DNA from: Leadbetterella byssophila DSM 17132
GTDB lineage: Bacteria > Bacteroidota > Bacteroidia > Cytophagales > Spirosomataceae
NCBI RefSeq assembly: GCF_000166395.1
Contig: NC_014655.1
Coordinates: forward strand, 3,038,001 to 3,102,000
Reading direction: 5' to 3'
DNA length: 64,000 nucleotides
Shown here: in pieces, positions 44,782 through 57,008 of the stretch
How the letters are laid out: each line of letters opens with the position of its first letter
Position numbering within the stretch: the first letter of the stretch is position 1
Notes under the pieces: model-generated
Database searches by the model: none
What the model saw: the letters and a program-made list of their open reading frames with translations, nothing else
What the model was told of the DNA's origin: nothing
Position numbers and translations under genes: made by a program

Positions 44782-44799
44782 AATATGATTTTTATCATG
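44782..44799. promoter_or_regulatory. CRP-type dyad upstream of hemA (imperfect copy)
   Basis: AATATGA-N6-TCATG. It matches the TATGA-N6-TCATA dyads found upstream of ccoI and ccoNO in 9 of 10 half-site bases. It lies 122 bases before the hemA ATG. Confidence 0.4.
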
Positions 44800-44921: not shown

Positions 44922-46181
44922 ATGTCAGAGAGATTACAGAGTTTGTCTTTGTCTTATAAAAAAGCTCCCTTTGAAATTAGGGAGAAACTGACCTTGTCAG
45001 AGGGTGAGATTAAGGATCTGTATATCAAATTCAAAGATGTTTTAGGTATCAAAGAATCTTTGATCATTTCTACTTGTAATAGAACGGAAGTATATTTCCG
45101 GTCGGCTGATGACATCAGTGCAGATTTGATTCGTCTTTTAGCTTCAGTTAAGGCGATTGATTCCTCAGAATTAGAAGGGTATTTTGAAGTTAATACAGAA
45201 GAGAGGGCTGCTTTGACCTATCTTTTTGAAGTTGCTTTAGGATTGCATTCTCAAGTAGTAGGAGACCAGCAAATCATTAATCAGGTTAAGCAAGCTTATC
45301 AATGGGCTGCTGATATGGATATGACGGGCACGTACCTGCATAGAGTTATGCACACTATCTTCTTTGCGAATAAGAGGGTGGTACAGGAAACGGAATTCCA
45401 TGATGGTGCAGCTTCCACTTCTTATGCCACTATTGATTTGATGCAAAGTATTCTTCCTGCCATGGCTCATCCTAGAATTTTAGTTTTGGGATTGGGAGAA
45501 ATGGGAGAAGATGTGGCTAAAACTTTGTTTGAGAAAGACATCAAGAATGTGACTTTATGTAATCGTAGTAAAGAAAAAGCGGAGGCTTTAGCTGAGCTTT
45601 ATCAGTACGATTATATGTCCTATTTTGATTTGATCAATAGGATTTCGGAGTTTGATATTATCATCTCTTCTTTGCGTTTGATGCAGCCCATTATCACTAA
45701 GTCTGTATTGAGCAAGCGTCAGTCTATTACCTATTGTTTTGACCTTTCTATTCCTCATAGTATTCATCCGGAAGTAGCTGAATTGCCGGGTGTAGTTTTC
45801 TATGGATTGGATGAGATTCAACAAATCACAGATGAATCTATAGACAAGAGATTAGCAGCAGTTCCAGCGGTAAAAGGCATTATTGAGGAACTTGTAGAAG
45901 ATATAGATACTTGGTCTAAAGAGCTTCAGTTATCTCCTACCATTCATAAACTTAAGAATGCTTTAGAGCAGATTCGTCAAGAGGAAATGGCTAAGCATTT
46001 GAAAGGTTTGACAGAAGAGGAGGCTAAAAAAGTGGAGAAAATCACTTCCGGAATGATGCAAAAGATCATTAAAATGCCTGTTCTTCAATTGAAAGCCGCT
46101 TGTAAAAGAGGTGAGGCCGAAGAACTCATTGACTTCATAACAGATCTATTTGATCTGGAAAAAACTTCCATTAAAGCTTAA
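44922..46181 (+). CDS. hemA: Glutamyl-tRNA reductase
   Basis: A 419-residue NADPH enzyme that starts heme synthesis by reducing glutamyl-tRNA to glutamate-1-semialdehyde. The catalytic Cys52 is in ISTCNRTEVYF, VGDQQIINQVKQAY binds substrate, and the NADPH domain has ILVLGLGEMGEDVAKTL near 187. The C-terminal dimerisation helices are present. The stop codon overlaps that of the convergent ccoS (TTAA). A location beside the cbb3 oxidase genes fits a demand for heme. Confidence 0.96.
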   Translation: MSERLQSLSLSYKKAPFEIREKLTLSEGEIKDLYIKFKDVLGIKESLIISTCNRTEVYFRSADDISADLIRLLASVKAIDSSELEGYFEVNTEERAALTYLFEVALGLHSQVVGDQQIINQVKQAYQWAADMDMTGTYLHRVMHTIFFANKRVVQETEFHDGAASTSYATIDLMQSILPAMAHPRILVLGLGEMGEDVAKTLFEKDIKNVTLCNRSKEKAEALAELYQYDYMSYFDLINRISEFDIIISSLRLMQPIITKSVLSKRQSITYCFDLSIPHSIHPEVAELPGVVFYGLDEIQQITDESIDKRLAAVPAVKGIIEELVEDIDTWSKELQLSPTIHKLKNALEQIRQEEMAKHLKGLTEEEAKKVEKITSGMMQKIIKMPVLQLKAACKRGEAEELIDFITDLFDLEKTSIKA

Positions 46182-46327
46182 TCTTTTTTTTCGTCTTCGA
46201 ATAGAATCCGAATGGCAGGTGTATGCGTGTCATCAAATTGTCCATCTTTTGTAGCCCAAAAGAATGAGATCAAAAATCCACCGGCAATCAAGAGTGCCAA
46301 TATCACTAAGAATACAATAACTCCCAT
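46178..46327 (-). CDS. ccoS: Cytochrome oxidase maturation protein CcoS, cbb3-type
   Basis: A 49-residue membrane protein. One N-terminal transmembrane helix (VIVFLVILALLIAGGFLISFFW) is followed by ATKDGQFDDTHTPAIRILFEDEKKD; the GQFDD…P…RILFED tail is the CcoS signature. It is needed for heme/copper insertion in CcoN in other bacteria. The ATG overlaps the ccoI stop by one base (TAATG) and the stop overlaps the hemA stop from the other strand. Confidence 0.92.
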   Translation of the reverse strand: MGVIVFLVILALLIAGGFLISFFWATKDGQFDDTHTPAIRILFEDEKKD

Positions 46328-48708
46328 TAGATCAGTTTTTTAATTTTGGCAAATAAATAAGTAGAACCTACTGCGAATAGGACTACTGACATAGAACTTA
46401 ATGGCATAAATACGGCTGCATACAGAGGGCTCAGGTATCCACTGGTGGCTAAGCCAAGTCCTATGAAATTATATAATATAGAAAGGGCAAAAGCTGCTCT
46501 TACTACTAGCATGGATGCTTTGCTGAAAGATAGGAATTTCCCTAGTTTTCCGAAACCTTCAGCATCCAGTATGATGTCACAACTTGGGGAAAAGGCATTG
46601 ATGTCCTCACTTAAGGCTACTCCTACATGTGCTTGTCGCAACGCTCCCGCGTCATTTAAGCCATCTCCTATCATTAGGACTTTCCTACCGTCAAGGGCTT
46701 GTATATAGCTTAATTTATCCTGAGGTTTTAGTTGGAATCTCATATCTGAGAAATACGGAGCTAAAACTCTTTTGTCTCTATCTCCATCTCCAGAAATTAA
46801 TCTCAGGTCATAGTATTGGCTTAATCGATTAAGGACCCCATCCCAGTTCTTTCTGTATTTTGTTTCGATCTGGTAATATCCTTTAATTACTCCATCTACT
46901 TCGATCCAGACCTGTCCAGGTTCTCTGTCTTTTACCTGAAGGAAGCTAGCACTACCTAAACGTAGTGCGTGCCCTTCCACCTTGCCCATTATGCCATGGC
47001 CTCTGATTTCCTTAAAGTTAGAAACGGAGTAAGTAGCTTCTGGTATATGGGCGGTCAACAGTTTACTTAGGGGATGTAAAGATTGGGAAGTGAGGGATTT
47101 GACCCATTTCAGTTCTTCTATATTTAGTTCTTGACCATGGTATGCAATTTGACCCGTATGTCCTTCTGTTAAGGTACCGGTTTTGTCAAAAGCTATGGTG
47201 TCTATTTCCGCCAATAATGGAATAATACCTTGATTTTTGACAAAGAACTTGTTCTTGCCCAAAATGCTCATGGCTGCATTCATGGCAAATGGTAAGGCCA
47301 AGGTAAGTGCGCAGGGGCAGGCCACCATTAGAACAGCGGTGACTGTTCTCCACATGAGTTCAGGATTATTTATTTTCCAATATATGCCTGTGATAAGGGC
47401 TATACCTATAGCTATATAGGTAAAATATTTGGCGAAAATATTAGCAAAGTGAGATGTCCGAGAAGACTTTTCTTTCTTGAATGCTTCATTGTTCCATAGT
47501 TCTGTCAAGTAGCTTTTTGAAACCGGCTTTTCGATTCGGATATCAATCTGGGTGCCTAATTGCCTGCCTCCTGCATATATACTTTCTCCCTCTTGAACTT
47601 CTATAGGAGCGGATTCTCCAGTAACAAAGCTGTAGTCGACTAGCGCATTACCGGAAATTACGGTGGAGTCTGCCGGTATGAGTTCCTGATGTTTGATTTC
47701 TACGATTTCACCTTGCTGAAGTTCAGAAATGTTCTTGAATTCTCCGTCTTTCGTTTTAACAGCTAGAGGAAAGTAAGATTTGTAGTCGTGTTCAAAGGAA
47801 AGGTACTTGTAAGTAACTTGCTGCATCCATTTACCTACCAATAAGAACAGTACGAGTCCCGCTAAACTGTCCCAATATCCCGAGGTTTGTTCTATGAATG
47901 TTTCATAGGTACTACGAATAAAGAGTGCCGTGATTCCCATGGCGATGGGTATGTCTACACTTAATACGTTAGTGGTTTTCTTCCAATTCTCTTTTATAGA
48001 GATCCAGGCACCTTTGAGGAAATCAGATGCACCATAAAAGAATACCGGAAGTGCCAATAGGAAGTTCAAGTACAAGAAGAACTTCTGGTATTGAGCATCT
48101 ACTGCATTTTGGAGATCCAGTTTAAAGTATTCAGGAAAGCTTAGTAGCATAATGTTTCCAAAGCAGAATCCGGTAACTCCTATTTTTAGGAGGATGGAAT
48201 GATTTTGTTTTGGTTCGTTTGCCTTTACACTTCCGAATGAGATGCTGGGGGGATAGCCTAAGGTGGCAAGTAGTTCTACTATTTCTTTGAGTGTGACTTT
48301 CTGAGGATCATAACTGACAAAAAGCCTCTTTTGGATGAAATTTAGTCGGGAAGTAAGGATTCCCTCTTTGATCTTTTGGAAATTTTCCAAAAGCCAAACG
48401 CAAGAGCTACAGTGTACATCCGGTATGAATAGAGTGACTTTAGCTAAGTTTTGGCTATTATAATCCAATAAGGAAGAGCAAATGGTTTCGTTGCTTAGAA
48501 AATCGTATTTACCCTGAAAGTTTTTGGCTTTCAGATTCGTACCATCATTAAAGTCATAGTAGGTGCAAAGCCCATTATCGGAAAGGATTTCATATACGGT
48601 TTTGCATCCTACACAACAGAACACTTTATCGTCATAATGCAAGGTTTCTTGCTCGCAAAGGCTATCGCAATGATAGCATTTCACCTGCTCTATTTCTTTA
48701 ATTTTCAT
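46327..48708 (-). CDS. ccoI: Copper-transporting P1B-type ATPase CcoI/FixI
   Basis: A 793-residue P-type ATPase that supplies copper for cbb3 oxidase assembly. The N-terminus has a cysteine-rich knuckle (CYHCDSLC…CCVGC) and an HMA domain (CSSCVWLLENF). About eight helices follow, with CPC at 464-466, phosphorylation Asp508 in DKTGT, SLHPLSK and GDGLNDAGAL. The ATG at 48708 is preceded by GGGGA; the frame is open three codons further to a TTG. It is coupled to ccoS by TAATG. A CRP-type dyad lies 100 bases upstream. Confidence 0.94.
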   Translation of the reverse strand: MKIKEIEQVKCYHCDSLCEQETLHYDDKVFCCVGCKTVYEILSDNGLCTYYDFNDGTNLKAKNFQGKYDFLSNETICSSLLDYNSQNLAKVTLFIPDVHCSSCVWLLENFQKIKEGILTSRLNFIQKRLFVSYDPQKVTLKEIVELLATLGYPPSISFGSVKANEPKQNHSILLKIGVTGFCFGNIMLLSFPEYFKLDLQNAVDAQYQKFFLYLNFLLALPVFFYGASDFLKGAWISIKENWKKTTNVLSVDIPIAMGITALFIRSTYETFIEQTSGYWDSLAGLVLFLLVGKWMQQVTYKYLSFEHDYKSYFPLAVKTKDGEFKNISELQQGEIVEIKHQELIPADSTVISGNALVDYSFVTGESAPIEVQEGESIYAGGRQLGTQIDIRIEKPVSKSYLTELWNNEAFKKEKSSRTSHFANIFAKYFTYIAIGIALITGIYWKINNPELMWRTVTAVLMVACPCALTLALPFAMNAAMSILGKNKFFVKNQGIIPLLAEIDTIAFDKTGTLTEGHTGQIAYHGQELNIEELKWVKSLTSQSLHPLSKLLTAHIPEATYSVSNFKEIRGHGIMGKVEGHALRLGSASFLQVKDREPGQVWIEVDGVIKGYYQIETKYRKNWDGVLNRLSQYYDLRLISGDGDRDKRVLAPYFSDMRFQLKPQDKLSYIQALDGRKVLMIGDGLNDAGALRQAHVGVALSEDINAFSPSCDIILDAEGFGKLGKFLSFSKASMLVVRAAFALSILYNFIGLGLATSGYLSPLYAAVFMPLSSMSVVLFAVGSTYLFAKIKKLI

Positions 48709-49050
48709 ATTCCCCAAATTTTAAGAAAGGTCATGTGAATTTTGGTCCTGTTAAGTATTTGGTTACAAAACTGGAACAATGCTAAGATTTATAAAATGAC
48801 CTGGAATTCGGAAAAATATGACCATTCTCATATTCAAAAGGTTAAATCAGTCCCTCAATCTGAAATTTATAGAATATTTTTTCAGAGGTAAAATAATTAA
48901 TGTGCTGAATAACAGTCAAATATAGATGATTTTCTGGTCATTATTAAGATGATTTTTAAGGGAATGATGAACATCATTTTATAACTTTGGGAGTTGAAAT
49001 AATTTTGTAAGGTTTACAAGTGTCTATCGGGCACTTTAAAACAAATAAGT
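48709..49050. other. ccoI / PAS-kinase divergent regulatory region
   Basis: 342 bases without a gene. It contains the dyad AATATGA-N6-TCATATT (48815-48834), plus-strand boxes TAACTTTG (48982-48989) and TAATTTTG (49000-49007) as candidate promoters for the kinase, and a minus-strand TATATTTG (48924-48917). None has a good -33 partner. Confidence 0.55.
48808..48834. promoter_or_regulatory. CRP-type dyad upstream of ccoI
   Basis: TCGGAAAAATATGA followed by N6 and TCATATT. The dyad AATATGA-N6-TCATATT has perfect 7-base arms and the 5-6-5 spacing of CRP sites (TGTGA-N6-TCACA). The same first 14 bases recur upstream of ccoNO. Confidence 0.65.
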
Positions 49051-50244
49051 ATGGGTGAAAGGGACTTTTCAGATCCTTCGGAAGGGATTTTTATGTATAC
49101 CACAGAGGGCATCTTTATCGTAGATCAAGATGGGATGATTATCCGAGCTAATCCTAGCGCGGAAAAGATATTTGGGTATCCTGAAAATACCTTGGCTGGA
49201 AGAAGAATTGAAGATCTGATACCAAAGAGATATCATAAATCTCATCCAAACCATAGAAAATCATTCCATGGTGAATCGCAAGCGCGCTCCATGGGTTTGG
49301 GGCGAGATTTATATGGATTGAGGTTAGATGGTTCTGAATTTCCGGTGGAGATCAGTTTGAGCCCTTTTTCCAATAGTACCGGAAATTTCGTGATCGCTTT
49401 TGTGATCGACATTAGTGTGAGAAAAGAAGCGGAATTAAAGCTAATTGCCTACAAAGACGAACTTGAAAAGAAAGTGGAAGAACGAACTCTTGACTTAAGG
49501 AGTACGATAGAAAGCTTAGAGACAATTAAGAATGATCTCGATGATGCTTTAAAGAGAGAGCAGGAACTGGGCTCTATGAAGAGTCGCTTTGTGTCTATTG
49601 CCTCTCATGAGTTCCGCACGCCATTAGCCACAATACTTTCATCCTTGTCTTTAGTAGAGAAATATGGCAATTTGAATGAAATAGAGAAGAGAGATAGGCA
49701 TATTCAGAGGATAAAATCAGCCGTAAGAAATTTAACAGAGATCCTCAATGATTTTCTATCTCTAAATAGATTAGAAGAGGGTAAGGTTGTTATTTCTTCG
49801 GAGACTTTTGAAGTTGATATATTAATGGAAGAAGTCTATAATCAAGTTTTGCCCTTATTGAAAAAGGATCAGACTATAGTGAGGCAACATACGGGTTCAT
49901 TGAGATTTAAATCCGATCCGAGGTTGATTACCAATATATTGTTGAATCTACTTTCGAATGCTATTAAGTTTTCTGCAAATGGAAAAACTATCCGCCTAAG
50001 TTCTCATCTTGATGATAAAGGCTTGGTGTTAAAGGTCAAAGATGAGGGGATTGGAATTCCGGCAGGGGAAAGAAAGAGAGTTTTTGAAAGATTCTACAGG
50101 ATGAGTAATGCGGGGGAAATTCAAGGGACCGGATTGGGCTTGAGTATCGTGAGTCATTACGTGACCTTGTTAAACGGAACGATTTCATTTGAAAGCACAG
50201 AGAACGTGGGAACTGAATTCACAGTTGTCCTGCCTGAAAGTTAA
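49051..50244 (+). CDS. PAS-domain sensor histidine kinase, FixL-like
   Basis: A 397-residue cytoplasmic kinase without transmembrane segments. PAS domain ~10-128, coiled coil ~130-172, His186 in SIASHEFRTPLATIL, ATPase motifs NLLSNAIKFS, DEGIGIP and GTGLGLSIV. Aligned to the heme PAS of rhizobial FixL on G-x-G-R and DG, His65 falls on the proximal heme ligand and Arg85 on the oxygen-sensing Arg220. This is suggestive; many non-heme PAS domains share part of the pattern. The gene is divergent from ccoI and 4 bases upstream of its regulator. Confidence 0.85.
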   Translation: MGERDFSDPSEGIFMYTTEGIFIVDQDGMIIRANPSAEKIFGYPENTLAGRRIEDLIPKRYHKSHPNHRKSFHGESQARSMGLGRDLYGLRLDGSEFPVEISLSPFSNSTGNFVIAFVIDISVRKEAELKLIAYKDELEKKVEERTLDLRSTIESLETIKNDLDDALKREQELGSMKSRFVSIASHEFRTPLATILSSLSLVEKYGNLNEIEKRDRHIQRIKSAVRNLTEILNDFLSLNRLEEGKVVISSETFEVDILMEEVYNQVLPLLKKDQTIVRQHTGSLRFKSDPRLITNILLNLLSNAIKFSANGKTIRLSSHLDDKGLVLKVKDEGIGIPAGERKRVFERFYRMSNAGEIQGTGLGLSIVSHYVTLLNGTISFESTENVGTEFTVVLPES

Positions 50245-50248
50245 GACT

Positions 50249-51286
50249 ATGAGAATATTATTAATAGAGGATAACCAGGAGATTCGTGAGAACATTTGCG
50301 AGATTCTGGAATTGGATGGATTCGATGTCATTACTGCTGCTAATGGTAAGGAGGGTTTAGATTTAGCTAGAGAATCTGTCCCGGATCTTATTGTATGTGA
50401 TATCATGATGCCGGTGATGGATGGGTATACTGTTCTTTATTTCTTATCCAAAGAGCCAAAGACTGCTGATATTCCCTTTATTTTCCTTACGGCTAAAGCT
50501 GAACGCTTAGACTTTAGAAAAGGTATGGAGATGGGGGCTGATGATTATATCACAAAGCCTTTTGAAGATGTAGAATTAATCAATGCTATCCGTAGTCGCC
50601 TGAAAAAAAAGGAACTGGTTAGGAAGGAGTATTCCAAGGATATGCAGGGTCTAGATCAGTTGGTATCCGATGCTGAAGGAGAAAGGGCCTTGAAAAACCT
50701 GATTGAAAACAGGGAAGTGAGGGATTACAAGAAGAAGACAGATATTTACAGGGAAGGAGACTATCCTTTATATTTATACTATCTGCAATCCGGTAAGGCC
50801 AAAGCTTACAAGACGAATGAATACGGGAAGGAGTTAATCATTAATCTTTACAATGAGGGGGATTTTATAGGTTATACGGACCTCATTCGGGAGTCTAATT
50901 TCAATGAAACCTTGACGGCTCTGGAAGATTGTAAGGTGATTTTGATCCCCAGAAAGATCTTCTCGGATTTGATCCTTAAAAATCCATCCGTTTCTATAAA
51001 GTTTATTCAATTGATTTCAAAGAATATTCAAACCATAGAGTCGGAGCTGATTAAGCTAGCTTATAATTCGGTTAGAAAAAGAGTTTCAGAGTCTTTATTG
51101 CTTTTCTTCAAAGATGAAACAGAATCACTAAAAGTGAGTAGGGAAGATTTAGCTTCCAAGGCGGGCACTTCCTTAGAAACGGCCATTCGTACTTTGTCAG
51201 ACTTTAAAGATGAAAGATTAATAGAGATAACGGGAGGGAGAATATCCCTTTTGGATGTTGATCGTTTGCGTAATATGCGTAATTAA
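50249..51286 (+). CDS. Response regulator fused to CRP/FNR transcription factor
   Basis: A 345-residue protein with an N-terminal receiver (~1-120: EDN, Asp51 in LIVCDIMMPVMDG, Thr in FLTAKA, Lys in ITKPF), a cyclic-nucleotide-type beta-roll (~165-260: REGDYPLYLYYLQSGKAKAY, EGDFIGYTD) and a Crp-type helix-turn-helix (~300-345: SREDLASKAGTSLETAIRTLSDFKDERLIE). The recognition helix has Glu and Arg spaced as in CRP/FNR (E-x3-R). There is no Cys cluster like FNR. The ATG at 50249 begins MRILLIEDN; it is 4 bases behind the kinase stop. The 3' end overlaps the convergent TauE-like gene by 4 bases. Confidence 0.9.
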   Translation: MRILLIEDNQEIRENICEILELDGFDVITAANGKEGLDLARESVPDLIVCDIMMPVMDGYTVLYFLSKEPKTADIPFIFLTAKAERLDFRKGMEMGADDYITKPFEDVELINAIRSRLKKKELVRKEYSKDMQGLDQLVSDAEGERALKNLIENREVRDYKKKTDIYREGDYPLYLYYLQSGKAKAYKTNEYGKELIINLYNEGDFIGYTDLIRESNFNETLTALEDCKVILIPRKIFSDLILKNPSVSIKFIQLISKNIQTIESELIKLAYNSVRKRVSESLLLFFKDETESLKVSREDLASKAGTSLETAIRTLSDFKDERLIEITGGRISLLDVDRLRNMRN

Positions 51287-51945
51287 GGTGCTTTACAAAG
51301 GGTCATTTCCCCATGCATTGTGGGGAGATGCATTCCTTTGTAAATGAAGAATACACCTAAAATGAGATAGGCATAAATGAAAACCTTTTGACTTTTTAAT
51401 CCTGAGGGAATCCATTTTCCAATAAATCCAAAGCTCATCATAACCGGTAGGGTGCCAATTCCAAAGAATAGCATATACAAGGCTCCCTCTTTCAAGCTTC
51501 CCAATACGAATGCCCCGCTTAATGCTGCATAGACCATGCCGCAGGGAAGTAGGCCATTAAGCATTCCGAATAAAAATTGTTTGCTTTTTCCCCCTTTTGA
51601 AGATAACTGGCTAATCCCTCTTCTTAGGCTGGCTGTAAATCTTGTTATGAAGTAGCTTTGATCAATCTTGCTTTTGAACTTAATTGGCAGTAATGTGAAG
51701 GTCAAAATCAGAACCCCTAGGGCAATAAAAAGATACTTTTGAGAAAGATAAAACCCTGTTTGTTGGCCTAAAACTCCAATAAATAAGCCTAACAGTACAT
51801 AAGTAGTGATTCTTCCGCTATTATAGATAGCCCTGCTAAGCAGGTATCTCCTTGGGTTAGCCGGAACTAATAAAGAGATAGGCCCGCACATGCCTAAGCA
51901 GTGCAGGCTACCTACTAACCCTAATATAAACGCAGAATGTATCAC
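51283..51945 (-). CDS. Sulfite exporter TauE/SafE family membrane protein of the cbb3 cluster
   Basis: A 220-residue membrane protein with about six helices. Features are LVGSLHCLGMCGPISL at the N-terminus and FGMLNGLLPCGMVYAALSGA in the middle, a pattern of the urease-accessory-like/DsbD-like TauE proteins that recur in cbb3 gene clusters and probably help copper or cofactor delivery. Cysteines in HCLGMCGP and LLPCGM may bind metal. The start codon is GTG at 51945, directly after the fixH stop. The real role is inference. Confidence 0.75.
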   Translation of the reverse strand: MIHSAFILGLVGSLHCLGMCGPISLLVPANPRRYLLSRAIYNSGRITTYVLLGLFIGVLGQQTGFYLSQKYLFIALGVLILTFTLLPIKFKSKIDQSYFITRFTASLRRGISQLSSKGGKSKQFLFGMLNGLLPCGMVYAALSGAFVLGSLKEGALYMLFFGIGTLPVMMSFGFIGKWIPSGLKSQKVFIYAYLILGVFFIYKGMHLPTMHGEMTLCKAP

Positions 51946-52377
51946 TTACAGGATAATTTTCTCCTCTTTCATGTAGTTTTTGCCCTTGTTTGACCAATTC
52001 ATTTTTAGTACCCAAAGGCCTTTTGCTAAGGTTTGGGTGGGAATGACTTGTTCAGTTTGATCTGCTAACACAAAGGGAACTTCTATGTCTAGACCAGCTT
52101 TTGAAGGGCGGTAGAACAGAATGGTGCCTTTTGAACCTTTGAGTTCCTCAGGAAAGGAGATTTTAATGGATTCAGCACTTTTTTGAATGTTTATGGGAGA
52201 GCTGAGATCGGAGGTGTTGTGTAATTTATCAATTTCCTCCTGGTAAGCTATTTCTTTTTTGTAGTAATCCGGACTTACTAGGGTAATATCATCTTGTTTA
52301 ACACAGAAGGTTACCAAGGATAAGATGAAGACTACAAATGCACCATAGGTGATAGCTATTTTATGTCCAAAGTTCAT
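51946..52377 (-). CDS. ccoH: FixH/CcoH family protein
   Basis: A 143-residue membrane-anchored protein. One N-terminal helix (KIAITYGAFVVFILSLVTFCV) is followed by a periplasmic beta-rich domain, with DDITLVSPDYYKKEIAYQEEID matching the family start (SPDYY…) and KGLWVLKMNWSNKGKNYMKEEKI at the end. FixH/CcoH assists assembly of the cbb3 oxidase. It lies 4 bases behind ccoG and touches the TauE-like gene. Confidence 0.85.
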   Translation of the reverse strand: MNFGHKIAITYGAFVVFILSLVTFCVKQDDITLVSPDYYKKEIAYQEEIDKLHNTSDLSSPINIQKSAESIKISFPEELKGSKGTILFYRPSKAGLDIEVPFVLADQTEQVIPTQTLAKGLWVLKMNWSNKGKNYMKEEKIIL

Positions 52378-52381
52378 GATC

Positions 52382-53788
<1,407 letters not shown>

Positions 53789-53794
53789 TATTTC

Positions 53795-54592
53795 TTATTG
53801 TTGTGCCGTAGAATCAGCTGCCACGACGAATAATTCCCCTTCGGGCGCTTTTCCATTGGCGGGTTTGCTACCTTGTAAAGACAAGATATAATTCGCTACG
53901 TCTTGCATATCTTTAGGTTTAATGGTGGATTGCCAAGAGATCATACCTTTCTCCGGAACACCGTATTTAATGGTTTTAAACACGTTATTAATTCCACCAC
54001 CATGTAACCAGTACTCGTCAGTCAAGTTAGGACCTACAGTACCTTCACCGTTCGCACCATGACAAGCTGCACAGTTTGCATCAAAGATGCTTTTACCATT
54101 AGCTAGCGCTTTAGTGTCCTCCAGGGTTAAGCTTACGGAGTTCTCGTCAATAGCATTACCTTGTTGTGCTTGGTAAGCTTCAACCTCCTTTCTGGCTTTT
54201 TCCATAGAGATCTCATATTCTTCACCGGATAGAGGAGCTTTTTTCCATACATGGAAAATTAGTAAGTAAGCCACTGAGAAGATGATAGTAATATAGAACA
54301 GGTTAAGCCACCATGGTGGAAGGTGATTGTCAAGTTCCTTTATGCCATCATAATCATGATCCAGAAGGATTTCTTTTTCATCCTTCACACTCACTGTAGT
54401 TCCGGTGATCTTCTTCCACCATTTCCCAAAGTCAAACTCCTCGTAGGTTTGCCCCGTTTTATAGGCTATCAGGCGCTTTGTTGTGCTATTGGTTTGTAAG
54501 ATTACAAAGATCAACATTAGCGCCACACCGATCATTAGAATAACTAATATGACCAGTAGAAGATCTTCTATAGTATTTATTTTGTATTCCAT
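53795..54592 (-). CDS. ccoP: cbb3 oxidase subunit CcoP, single-heme type
   Basis: A 265-residue cytochrome c subunit. Two transmembrane segments (~10-32 and ~93-112) and a C-terminal cytochrome c domain with one heme site CAACH (Cys174, Cys177, His178) and a probable axial Met in KGMISW. Proteobacterial CcoP usually has two hemes, so this version is the shorter, mono-heme form often seen in Bacteroidota. The alanine/glutamine-rich tail is not conserved. It is co-directional with ccoQ and ccoNO. Confidence 0.9.
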   Translation of the reverse strand: MEYKINTIEDLLLVILVILMIGVALMLIFVILQTNSTTKRLIAYKTGQTYEEFDFGKWWKKITGTTVSVKDEKEILLDHDYDGIKELDNHLPPWWLNLFYITIIFSVAYLLIFHVWKKAPLSGEEYEISMEKARKEVEAYQAQQGNAIDENSVSLTLEDTKALANGKSIFDANCAACHGANGEGTVGPNLTDEYWLHGGGINNVFKTIKYGVPEKGMISWQSTIKPKDMQDVANYILSLQGSKPANGKAPEGELFVVAADSTAQQ

Positions 54593-54605: not shown

Positions 54606-54764
54606 TTAATCCTCTAGAGGCAAATTTTCCAGATATTCTCTCTTCTTGGCATCTAATCTATAGACATAAAAGCCCAGACCTATAAAGAATAGAAAGAAGA
54701 CGATCAGGGAGAAGACCGGGTAGATGCTAACTCCCTCTACTAGTTCGAAATAGTGCTTAAACAT
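54606..54764 (-). CDS. ccoQ: CcoQ-like small subunit
   Basis: A 52-residue protein: MFKHYFELVEGVSIYPVF, one membrane helix (SLIVFFLFFIGLGFYVYRL) and a charged tail DAKKREYLENLPLED. Length, topology and place between ccoNO and ccoP fit CcoQ (cbb3 oxidase subunit 3). It starts 4 bases after the ccoNO stop and ends 13 bases before ccoP. Confidence 0.85.
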   Translation of the reverse strand: MFKHYFELVEGVSIYPVFSLIVFFLFFIGLGFYVYRLDAKKREYLENLPLED

Positions 54765-54768
54765 GATC

Positions 54769-56907
54769 TTACTTTTGTTTTATGTCTGTTCCTAATCTTT
54801 GTAGGTAAGCTATCAAAGCGATGATCTCTTTGTCTTTTGTTACCTTTATCTTATCCTTTTCCAGGTTTTTCGCGATGATTTCCGCCTGTTTGTTTGACTC
54901 TTCGACTGCCGTATCTTCGAAGCCTTCTTCGTAAGGTACACCGAGTTGTCTCATCACTTTGATCTTTTTAGGAAGATCAGAGTAGTCTATATCATCATCT
55001 ACTAACCAAGGGTAGCTAGGCATGATAGAGCCTGGAGACATGGAAGTAGGGTCAAACATGTGGTTGTAGTGCCAGCTGTCAGGATATTTACCTCCAATTC
55101 TATGTAGATCCGGACCGGTTCTTTTTGATCCCCAAAGGAATGGTCTGTCATAAACGAACTCTCCGGCTTTAGAATACTCTCCATAACGTTCTGTCTCGTC
55201 TCTGAATGGTCGTACCATCTGTGAGTGACAGCTCACGCAGCCTTCACGGATATAAATGTCTCTACCTGTTAATTCAAGAGGAGTATATGGTTTTACAGAA
55301 GCTATGGTAGGCACATTGGACTTGATTAAAGCTGTAGGTACGAATTCCACTAAACCGCCTATGGCAACCGCAACTATGGCTAAACCTGTGAATATGAATG
55401 GCTTTCTTTCAAGTATAGTATGCCATCCTCCACCTACTACCTGTACATTTTTCTGAAGAGCTGGAGCTTCAGCTGCATCATAGTCAGCAAAGGATCCTTG
55501 AGCGGCCGTTTTAAGTAAGTTGTATATCATTATGAAAACACCCACCAAGTACATGGTACCACCTACTGCTCTCATCATGTACTGAGGCACGATCTTAGTA
55601 ACGGTTTCAAGGAAGTTAGGATAAGCCAGGAATCCATCTGCGGTAAACTCTTTCCACATTAAGCTTTGAGTTAAACTTGCCCAATAGAGAGGTAGAGCAT
55701 AGAAAATGATACCCAGCGTTCCTATCCAGAAGTGTAGGTTTACTAAAGACTTAGAGTACATTTTAGTATTCCACATTTTTGGTACCAAATAGTATAGGAT
55801 ACCAAAGATCATGAAACCATTCCAGCCTAATGCTCCGATGTGTACGTGTGCTACGATCCAGTCAGTGTAGTGCGCTATGGCGTTCACATTTTTCAAGGAT
55901 AGCATAGGGCCTTCGAAAGTGGCCATACCATAAGCAGTAACCGCAACCACAAAGAACTTCAGGACATTGTCCTCTCTTACTTTATCCCAAGCTCCTCTTA
56001 AGGTTAATAGGCCGTTTAGCATACCTCCCCAGGAAGGAGCAATAAGCATAACGGAGAATACCGTACCTAAACTTTGTGCCCAGTCGGGAAGAGAGGTATA
56101 TAATAAGTGGTGAGGTCCTGCCCAGATGTAAATGAAAATGAGGGACCAAAAGTGTATGATGGAAAGTTTATAAGAGAATACCGGCCTATTAGCTGCTTTT
56201 GGTAGGTAGTAATACATTAGACCTAGGTAAGGTGTGGTCAAGAAGAATGCCACAGCGTTATGTCCATACCACCATTGAACCAAAGCATCCTGTACCCCTG
56301 CAAACATGGAATAACTCTTAGTGAATGATACCGGAATGGCTAAAGAGTTAACAATATGAAGAAGAGCTACGGTCACTATGGTGGCAATATAGAACCAGAT
56401 GGCCACATACATGTGTCTTTCTCTTCTCTTGGCTATCATTCCAAAGAAGTTGATGGCAAATACCACCCAAATCAGTGCAATAGCTACGTCAATAGGCCAT
56501 TCTAATTCAGCATATTCTTTGCTTGAGGTTAAGCCCATAGGCAAAGTGATTGCCGCAGCCAGAATGATCAACTGCCATCCCCAGAAGTGAATCCAGGATA
56601 GAGCCTTACTGAACAGACCAGTTTTAAGTAATCTTTGGCTGGAATGGTAGACCCCGGCAAACATGGCGTTCCCTACAAAGGCAAAGATGACCGCATTCGT
56701 GTGTAAAGGTCTTAGCCTACCGAATGTAGTGTGGGGGTTCTCGAAGTTCGCTTCGGGTAGAAATAGTTGGATCGCCAGAGTAAGTCCGACTAACATTCCT
56801 ATTACTCCATATACCACTGAAGCTATAAGGAAGGCCTTGACGATCTTGTTGTCATATTCGAACTGCTCCAAGACTCCAACACCTGATGTTTGAGTATTAT
56901 TCTGCAT
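54769..56907 (-). CDS. ccoNO: cbb3-type cytochrome c oxidase CcoN-CcoO fusion
   Basis: A 712-residue fusion. Residues ~1-480 are CcoN, the heme-copper catalytic subunit with about 12-14 helices and conserved His motifs (RPLHTNAV, WWYGHNAVAFFLT, HYTDWIVAHVHIGALGWN). After a linker, residues ~510-712 are CcoO with a helix and one heme c site CVSCH (Cys557, Cys560, His561) in EGCVSCHSQMVRPF. The fusion is common in Bacteroidota. It gives high-affinity oxygen respiration. A dyad shared with ccoI lies 75 bases upstream of the ATG. Confidence 0.95.
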   Translation of the reverse strand: MQNNTQTSGVGVLEQFEYDNKIVKAFLIASVVYGVIGMLVGLTLAIQLFLPEANFENPHTTFGRLRPLHTNAVIFAFVGNAMFAGVYHSSQRLLKTGLFSKALSWIHFWGWQLIILAAAITLPMGLTSSKEYAELEWPIDVAIALIWVVFAINFFGMIAKRRERHMYVAIWFYIATIVTVALLHIVNSLAIPVSFTKSYSMFAGVQDALVQWWYGHNAVAFFLTTPYLGLMYYYLPKAANRPVFSYKLSIIHFWSLIFIYIWAGPHHLLYTSLPDWAQSLGTVFSVMLIAPSWGGMLNGLLTLRGAWDKVREDNVLKFFVVAVTAYGMATFEGPMLSLKNVNAIAHYTDWIVAHVHIGALGWNGFMIFGILYYLVPKMWNTKMYSKSLVNLHFWIGTLGIIFYALPLYWASLTQSLMWKEFTADGFLAYPNFLETVTKIVPQYMMRAVGGTMYLVGVFIMIYNLLKTAAQGSFADYDAAEAPALQKNVQVVGGGWHTILERKPFIFTGLAIVAVAIGGLVEFVPTALIKSNVPTIASVKPYTPLELTGRDIYIREGCVSCHSQMVRPFRDETERYGEYSKAGEFVYDRPFLWGSKRTGPDLHRIGGKYPDSWHYNHMFDPTSMSPGSIMPSYPWLVDDDIDYSDLPKKIKVMRQLGVPYEEGFEDTAVEESNKQAEIIAKNLEKDKIKVTKDKEIIALIAYLQRLGTDIKQK

Positions 56908-56981
56908 AATCTGTCAGAGGTTTTTAGTTATTGAGGTGTAAAATTAGGAGGGTGAGAAAGGGGGAAATATGACAGCAGATA

Positions 56982-57008
56982 TCGGAAAAATATGAGTTTG
57001 CTCATAAT
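56982..57008. promoter_or_regulatory. CRP-type dyad upstream of ccoNO
   Basis: TCGGAAAAATATGA followed by N6 and TCATAAT. The inner palindrome TATGAG-TTTG-CTCATA is perfect over 16 bases. The first 14 bases are identical to the copy upstream of ccoI, in the same orientation to the gene. A half site GGAAATATGA lies 23 bases nearer to ccoNO (56963-56972). Confidence 0.65.

Follow-up and report, generated by a model that had tools for sequence, protein, structure and literature searches.

A FixL-type kinase and a receiver-CRP fusion protein as a probable two-component switch for the cbb3 oxidase of Leadbetterella byssophila

In rhizobia and Caulobacterales, the FixL-FixJ-FixK system places a CRP/FNR-type transcription factor under two-component control by a haem-PAS-type sensor kinase, and its targets are cbb3 oxidase genes of the fixNOQP/fixGHIS type, read through operators with a TGA-N6-TCA core. 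To our knowledge, little work has been done on how Bacteroidota control their high-affinity oxidase. The present study concerns a stretch of 64,000 nucleotides (hereafter the window, numbered from its first letter) in the complete 4.06 Mb genome of Leadbetterella byssophila DSM 17132 (NC_014655.1, positions 3,038,001 to 3,102,000), where a gene pair encoding a PAS-containing sensor histidine kinase and a response regulator fused to a CRP/FNR-type domain lies inside an island of cbb3 oxidase genes. The pair is probably an oxygen-responsive (or haem-redox-responsive) two-component switch for the cbb3 oxidase, standing in for a standalone FNR. While haem-PAS two-component systems and FNR/FixK-type regulators are both known to control cbb3 oxidases, a merged receiver-CRP protein is unusual. 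Neither the pair nor its promoter code is described for Bacteroidota in the literature matches listed (titles, abstract starts and passages), in agreement with the original prediction, which was made from the bare sequence and knew of no characterised case in that phylum.

The two genes of the pair are the following.

49051..50244, forward strand: sensor histidine kinase with a FixL/DosP-type PAS domain, HisKA and HATPase_c
50249..51286, forward strand: response regulator, receiver (Asp51) fused to a CRP/FNR-type cNMP-fold (cyclic-nucleotide-binding fold) and winged-helix domain

These coordinates and strands, the gap of 4 bases between kinase stop and regulator start, and the position inside a cbb3 island had been predicted exactly. 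A domain scan places PAS_9 at residues 19-122, HisKA at 176-244 and HATPase_c at 289-396 of the kinase (397 aa), and Response_reg at 3-115, cNMP_binding at 158-244 and HTH_Crp_2 at 278-342 of the regulator (345 aa). The gene order, with < for the reverse and > for the forward strand, is ccoS<, ccoI<, kinase>, regulator>, SafE<, ccoH<, ccoG<, ccoP<, ccoQ<, ccoNO<. The pair was expected between ccoI-ccoS and ccoNOQP-ccoG-ccoH, and these neighbours are indeed present; ccoN and ccoO are one fused gene, and a DsbD_2/SafE-like gene, missing from the predicted list, stands between the regulator and ccoH.

The likeness to FixL-FixJ-FixK covers the type of kinase, the two-component control of a CRP/FNR-type factor, the cbb3 targets and the operator core: the genes found here are cbb3 genes preceded by an anaerobox-type operator. 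The differences concern the output: the GerE domain and a separate FixK are missing, and the receiver and the CRP part form one protein, which removes the intermediate step of transcription. The domain scan found cNMP_binding and HTH_Crp_2 as the output of the regulator and no GerE/LuxR-type helix-turn-helix of the FixJ kind, and the best matches of the receiver are of the PleD/RpaA/CpxR/PhoB type. Lacking FixJ's output domain and a FixK of its own, the pair is not a member of that system, although by analogy it would work like it. The proposal that FixJ and FixK are merged here holds as a functional analogy and not as homology. The original prediction was correct in its observations, and its functional analogy has been strengthened by the linkage to ccoN, the FixL-type sensor with its haem histidine, the common CRP/FNR-type operator and, at ccoS/ccoNO, an activator-like geometry, all read from sequence.

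Kinase and regulator recur together. In 128 of 139 regulator loci, the gene upstream of the regulator codes for a homologous kinase (its stop at most 250 bases from the start of the regulator), so that the pairing is not a matter of chance; in the 118 loci with an aligned PAS domain, the distance ranges from a 29-base overlap to 232 bases and is mostly below 40. Both sets include the window's copy and genomes fetched twice, the 118 sequences representing 112 distinct kinases. Of 150 genomes surveyed in the window's family, 137 have the regulator (E 1e-40 or better) and 124 have ccoN, with the regulator in 120/124 genomes that have ccoN and 17/26 of those that lack it (Fisher p 1.7e-5, uncorrected for ancestry). 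The proposed ground for refutation, that the pair usually lies away from cbb3 genes in related genomes, was not borne out. Both genes are listed for 106 family genomes; they are at most 15 kb apart in 68, separated by 15-50 kb in 7, far from each other in 4 and on different contigs in 27. This count covers the regulator matches listed for 119 of the 137 positive genomes, the regulator copy closest to ccoN being used in each. The pair stands on either strand and upstream or downstream of ccoN among relatives, which makes the linkage more than one inherited block. On the scale of the phylum, 49 of 345 sampled genomes carry the regulator (E 1e-50 or better), all in the same class, in searches that scored only the best 4-8 candidates per genome. 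With one regulator copy per genome and three members of the window's family excluded, 46 of these were examined: the regulator is within 15 kb of ccoN in 14, within 50 kb in 3, far away in 10 and on another contig in 13, and 6 have no listed ccoN (five without a ccoN match, and G358, whose ccoN ranks beneath the matches listed).

The sensor domain is of a recognisable kind. A search with the PAS domain alone returned FixL first (E 2.5e-11) and the haem PAS sensor 1v9y at 3.8e-11, with the haem region ungapped. When a profile of 19 PAS sequences was compared with the PDB, the top 14 matches (FixL, DosP/EcDOS and 10jx) all had E 5.1e-21 or better; a blue-light photoreceptor came next, at E 2.6e-9. 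The domain falls in the FixL/DosP haem-PAS group and has its proximal haem histidine: His65 aligns with that of BjFixL, RmFixL and EcDosP, and the residue is kept in 117/118 aligned kinases (111/112 distinct ones), while the adjacent residues vary. DosP/EcDOS and other haem-PAS sensors share this PAS family and the proximal histidine; the output of DosP is a cyclic-di-GMP phosphodiesterase, whereas here it is a histidine kinase. The distal arginine, which stabilises bound O2 in FixL and which we take to be Arg220 of BjFixL, is matched by Arg85 of the window's kinase. For EcDOS, a role of Arg97 is indicated by titles in the reference list of PMC4263535. According to passages of PMC10468136, haem binding is determined primarily by the proximal histidine, which occurs in 60% of the FixL/DosP PAS cluster. 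The kinase of the window is likely to bind haem. The three other PAS_9 matches of its own genome score 28-40 bits on the family profile and the window's kinase 192. Its structure model (mean pLDDT, the predicted local distance difference test, 87.5) consists of the PAS domain, a long helix and the kinase core, and fold searches with the kinase core and with the CRP part of the regulator returned expected families only.

The regulator has the receiver residues of a two-component response regulator and an adjacent kinase gene. As predicted, both the receiver Asp51 and the helix-turn-helix of the CRP part are intact: no variation was seen at Asp51, at Lys103 or at Glu310 and Arg314 of the recognition helix across 38 aligned sequences, among them the window's. 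In a tree of the CRP parts of 55 sampled fusions, 33 standalone proteins and two CRPs of the window's genome, all 55 fall into one clade, whose support is modest (0.757), and group with CRP/FNR proteins of Bacteroidota, FixK not being part of that tree. FixK stands alone, and here the CRP part is fused to a receiver; among the closest solved structures of that part is 2gau, a Crp/Fnr protein of Porphyromonas gingivalis that has no receiver. The FNR cysteine motifs were not found in the window's regulator, whose cysteines, at 17, 50 and 228 only, lie in no CxxC. FNR/FnrN and their standalone relatives in Bacteroidota share with the fusion the fold, the slot divergent from ccoI and the type of operator; in the fusion, however, the receiver occupies the place of the N-terminal cysteine motif, and the second cysteine (in VCxIP) is kept in 12 of the 55 sampled. 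For these reasons, phosphorylation, rather than an iron-sulphur (Fe-S) cluster, is probably the means by which the fusion senses. The Arg-Ser motif for contact with cyclic AMP (cAMP) is absent from the regulator on inspection by eye. The model of the regulator (mean pLDDT 80.8) has a predicted template modelling score (pTM) of 0.45, so it gives no basis for the packing of its domains.

Three palindromes and a promoter element of the window bear on the targets.

48965..48976, no strand: operator TGA-N6-TCA AATGATGAACATCATT, 5' of the kinase, its centre exactly 29 bp from TAATTTTG
49000..49007, forward strand: TAnnTTTG-type -7 box TAATTTTG of the kinase-regulator operon
48819..48830, no strand: operator TGA-N6-TCA TATGACCATTCTCATA, 5' of ccoI
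56993..57004, no strand: operator TGA-N6-TCA TATGAGTTTGCTCATA, 5' of ccoNO

These are the top three of the 22 TGA-N6-TCA palindromes in the 64 kb, lying 5' of ccoI, ccoNO and the kinase. The ccoI operator has its centre 51 bp from CAGTTTTG (48766-48773; one mismatch to TAnnTTTG), and a TCA half-site follows 22 bp downstream of the ccoI operator and 23 bp downstream of the ccoNO operator. Among relatives, TGA-N6-TCA is the strongest inverted repeat 5' of ccoNO out of 64 trimers x 11 spacings. A first count found the operator in 42/47 regions (mean 5.1 and maximum 12 in shuffles that kept dinucleotides); it was set aside, as part of it came from matches inside ccoS coding sequence, and the operator was recounted on intergenic DNA only, against shuffles of base composition. 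In the fusion-linked set (fusion contigs L100-L179, with or without ccoN on the contig, L240-L259 and the window), the operator is present upstream of ccoS in 26/27 regions, ccoI in 17/22, ccoNO in 7/12 and the kinase in 51/78, with shuffle means of 1.5, 1.2, 0.5 and 3.9 respectively. Islands with the fusion elsewhere in the genome carry it at ccoS in 11/13, ccoI in 9/9 and ccoNO in 4/7, and unlinked kinases in 10/17. Here TGA is mostly preceded by A or C and TCA mostly followed by T or G, to be compared with TTGANCNNGATCAANG, the FixK/FnrN consensus in the part of PMC4999443 consulted.

Spacing within these promoters was counted as well. The 257 non-redundant regions contain 128 adjacent site pairs; the spacing is exactly 22 bp in 70 of these, and the runner-up spacings occur 4 times each. 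The box TAnnTTT[GA] starts 29 bp from the operator centre 33 times and 51 bp from it 32 times (other offsets: mean 0.61, maximum 4); a recount extending 70 bases into called genes, for [TC]AnnTTTG, gave 51 and 50 (others: mean 0.79, maximum 7). With tandem operators a single box is counted at both offsets, and the backgrounds exclude offsets below 8 and the peak neighbours 28, 30, 50 and 52, which had 6, 2, 1 and 5 boxes in the first count and 5, 2, 1 and 8 in the recount. TAnnTTT also occurs at offset 6 (19 times), in overlap with the operator edge. The geometry, at either offset, is present in 42/59 ccoS and 8/13 ccoNO regions with a site and is a feature of the oxidase promoter. TAnnTTTG is the -7 consensus of Bacteroidota, and this consensus and its distance to the transcription start would place the operators near -41.5, the class II position, and the next ones up near -63.5. 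Tandem pairs at 22 bp were found in 22/40 ccoS and ccoI regions with a site in the fusion-linked set and 3/22 in fusion-less genomes (Fisher p 0.0025, uncorrected for ancestry); outside this test, they occur in 5/19 regions of islands with the fusion elsewhere and in 8/16 of short ccoN loci.

A different regulator occupies the same slot in other genomes. In 11 of 20 fetched fusion-less islands (L181-L183 and L189-L196; seven of them in family f7, which we take to be Flavobacteriaceae), a CRP/FNR protein is encoded divergently from ccoI with the same operator. Three of the four genomes of the window's family that have ccoN and lack the fusion possess a close standalone FNR (G060, G083 and G092); in the fourth, G033, an 87% complete draft, neither was found. 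Altogether, close standalone FNR proteins (68% identity or more to the query) occur in 14 family genomes, all with ccoN and 11 also with the fusion. Of 13 standalone proteins sampled beside ccoI, 12 combine an N-terminal CxxC with the cysteine in VCxIP and L196 has neither; among all 33, the numbers are 28 with both motifs and 5 with neither. Both motifs align with Aliivibrio fischeri FNR, whose third N-terminal cysteine stays unaligned. The regulator beside ccoI is probably of the Fe-S FNR type. Its apparent exchange with the fusion mirrors, by analogy, the case of Caulobacterales, which lost FnrN and replaced it by FixLJ plus FixK, according to passages of PMC4999443.

A mechanism can be proposed from these observations. 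His65 of the FixL-type PAS domain would hold haem, and loss of O2 would turn the kinase on. Given the pairing and the intact residues, the kinase would then phosphorylate Asp51 of its partner, and phosphorylation, instead of cAMP or an Fe-S cluster, would allow the CRP/FNR-like domain to bind DNA as a dimer. The statistics of the operators suggest that the regulator binds TGA-N6-TCA at ccoI, at ccoS/ccoNO and at its own promoter and activates transcription there at low oxygen. In relatives, the ccoS/ccoNO operators are centred about 29 bp upstream of a TA/CAnnTTTG box, and many are preceded by a second operator at a distance of 22 bp. Such a switch would replace the standalone, probably Fe-S, FNR-type regulator found divergent from ccoI in some relatives.

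Several observations weigh against this assignment, and they are considered here together with other explanations. As regards the signal, the distal arginine is kept in only 30/118 kinases; it is most often replaced by Met (26), Leu (26), Phe (17) or Ile (8), and replacements occur in the window's genus too. With the proximal histidine kept almost throughout, haem is therefore likely and the exact gas response less certain. The sensor could answer to something other than O2, be it redox state, nitric oxide or carbon monoxide through haem, or a non-haem ligand, the fold and the histidine being kept. The loss of the arginine in 88/118 kinases agrees with this, as does a change of cofactor in some members of the FixL cluster, described in the portion of PMC10468136 seen; yet the near-universal histidine, the presence of Arg85 in the window's kinase and a high-affinity oxidase as target, which fits O2 supply as the signal, make such a sensor unlikely. 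The input itself is also variable. Ten kinase-like neighbours have no aligned PAS domain (three partial, four with an N-terminus that is receiver-like by eye, three other, including L081, where a FixL-like PAS lies farther upstream), and in seven partner kinases, the four receiver-like ones among them, the N-terminus is unaligned. In the latter four (L112, L160, L176 and L178), a receiver-like part stands where the FixL-type PAS would be; it seems that the input module has been exchanged there, with the kinase core and the receiver-CRP partner kept. In 11 of the 139 regulator loci there is no upstream kinase at all.

The strongest doubt concerns which protein binds the operators. The window's genome has 22 cNMP-fold matches, the fusion included, and by eye Glu-x-x-Ser-Arg is present in the recognition helix of 5 of 17 short cNMP-fold proteins, so another binder is possible; an earlier claim that the fusion is the genome's sole protein with Glu...Arg in that helix was dropped on account of these five. 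In the 17 short proteins (among the 21 of 22 matches listed), the helix-turn-helix ends at or just past the recognition helix, e.g. IASYLGIT...SLSRIR. Genomes without the fusion carry the operator as well (ccoS 11/11, ccoI 11/12, ccoNO 1/4), and 27/78 kinase upstream regions have none. A genome-wide scan for WATGAN6TCATW found 40 sites against 30 in the control, from which no regulon was obtained, and a scan of the window for the FNR consensus (TTGATN4ATCAA, 2 mismatches) gave 82 matches with 67.8 expected, which is uninformative alone. Another member of the CRP/FNR family might thus bind the cco operators, the kinase-regulator operon being one of its targets and the fusion controlling other genes; the equal frequency of operators in fusion-less islands, the 21 other cNMP-fold matches and the close standalone FNR in 11/137 fusion-bearing family genomes are in its favour. 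We consider it distinctly unlikely, for the fusion is the best of the three proteins that pass the HTH_Crp_2 cut-off in its own genome (the others being a 205-aa protein whose recognition helix lacks Glu by eye, and a fragment), family genomes with ccoN have the close standalone FNR in 14/124 cases and the fusion in 120/124, and tandem operators are commoner where the fusion is linked.

Linkage and promoter geometry also have exceptions. In the window's own genus, nine genomes with both genes are listed: three are linked (the window's, G093 and G101) and six are not (G047, at more than 1 Mb, and five on other contigs), and a further one, G109, has the regulator and no ccoN match. The -7 geometry is present in only 6/38 ccoI and 14/75 kinase regions with a site, and in the window the ccoNO operator centre is 52 bp (not 51) from TAATTTTA (56939-56946), one base off, with one letter of the box deviating too. 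Operators are common at ccoI and the kinase, the box being mostly at another position or unrecognisable, and, the geometry being rare there, activation at these promoters is generally without support from box position. The claim of this geometry for all three kinds of promoter was accordingly dropped after the recount, which slightly weakens the case for control of ccoI and of the pair's own promoter; our confidence in the main conclusion is unchanged. The pair might even be an accidental neighbour, or a repressor or anti-activator of cbb3, as its separation from ccoN in several genomes of the genus and the rarity of activator geometry at ccoI and the kinase would allow. This is very improbable in view of a linkage that recurs in several different arrangements and of operators 29 or 51 bp upstream of the -7 box, an activator position, in 50/72 ccoS/ccoNO promoters with a site. 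The switch for the cbb3 oxidase proposed above remains the preferred explanation.

The remaining genes of the island are listed below.

46178..46327, reverse strand: ccoS, 49 aa, ends taken from sequence
46327..48717, reverse strand: ccoI, copper-type P-type ATPase divergent from the kinase, named by context
51283..51945, reverse strand: DsbD_2/SafE-like membrane protein, convergent with the regulator
51946..52377, reverse strand: ccoH/fixH
52382..53788, reverse strand: ccoG/fixG
53795..54592, reverse strand: ccoP, FixP_N above the Pfam cut-off and under the NCBIfam cut-off
54606..54764, reverse strand: ccoQ-like gene, 52 aa, assigned by position
54769..56907, reverse strand: ccoNO fusion, catalytic and mono-haem subunits in a single gene

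The ccoI product scores under the curated subfamily cut-offs for copper ATPases, a family search with the 52-aa ccoQ-like product gave no match, and the ends of the DsbD_2/SafE-like and regulator genes overlap by 4 bases. Beside the island, a further TGA-N6-TCA palindrome, AATATGATTTTTATCATGCT, lies at 44786-44797, 5' of hemA (which starts at 44922); it was rejected as a target, the -7 geometry being absent by eye, and is probably due to chance, or possibly a weak target.

The surroundings of the pair in other genomes have features of their own. In L037, L084, L086 and L133, the receiver-CRP fusion has ccoI nearby and no kinase gene directly before it. Among the genes flanking the pair in L100-L179 and L220-L259, a conserved protein of about 120-135 aa recurs, often divergently from the kinase (a cluster of 42 sequences; one example was scanned and had no Pfam match), and universal stress proteins (22) and radical-SAM proteins that are HemN-like by eye (9) are recurrent neighbours. 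Receiver-CRP regulators with 39.7-45.3% identity are found on plasmids of Hymenobacter, Runella and Spirosoma (NZ_CP007144.1, CP014769.1, NZ_CP030856.1 and NZ_CP089543.1), with PAS proteins annotated under the same match, so that the system may move. No relative was found in the viral contigs searched.

On a broader scale, the pair might be a hypoxia switch of the whole class Bacteroidia, with a haem-PAS kinase plus a phospho-gated FNR substitute taking over from an Fe-S FNR in the same slot and on the same operators, and with the fused receivers letting two CRP-type dimers bind side by side at a 22-bp phase; we advance this tentatively, rating its chances slightly below even. If it is true, the sensor and the DNA-binding protein were swapped while the cis code stayed fixed. 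The 22-bp tandem logic (about -41.5/-63.5) is rarer in fusion-less islands, where single sites prevail. The locus offers a two-gene candidate with exact operators in the window and a promoter code common to many relatives, through which targets may be predicted in other Bacteroidia genomes. It also represents a natural experiment, the same slot being taken in some genomes by a probably Fe-S sensor and in others by a haem-type kinase pair, and it suggests that a three-protein oxygen relay may be shortened to two by fusing a receiver to an FNR-like factor.

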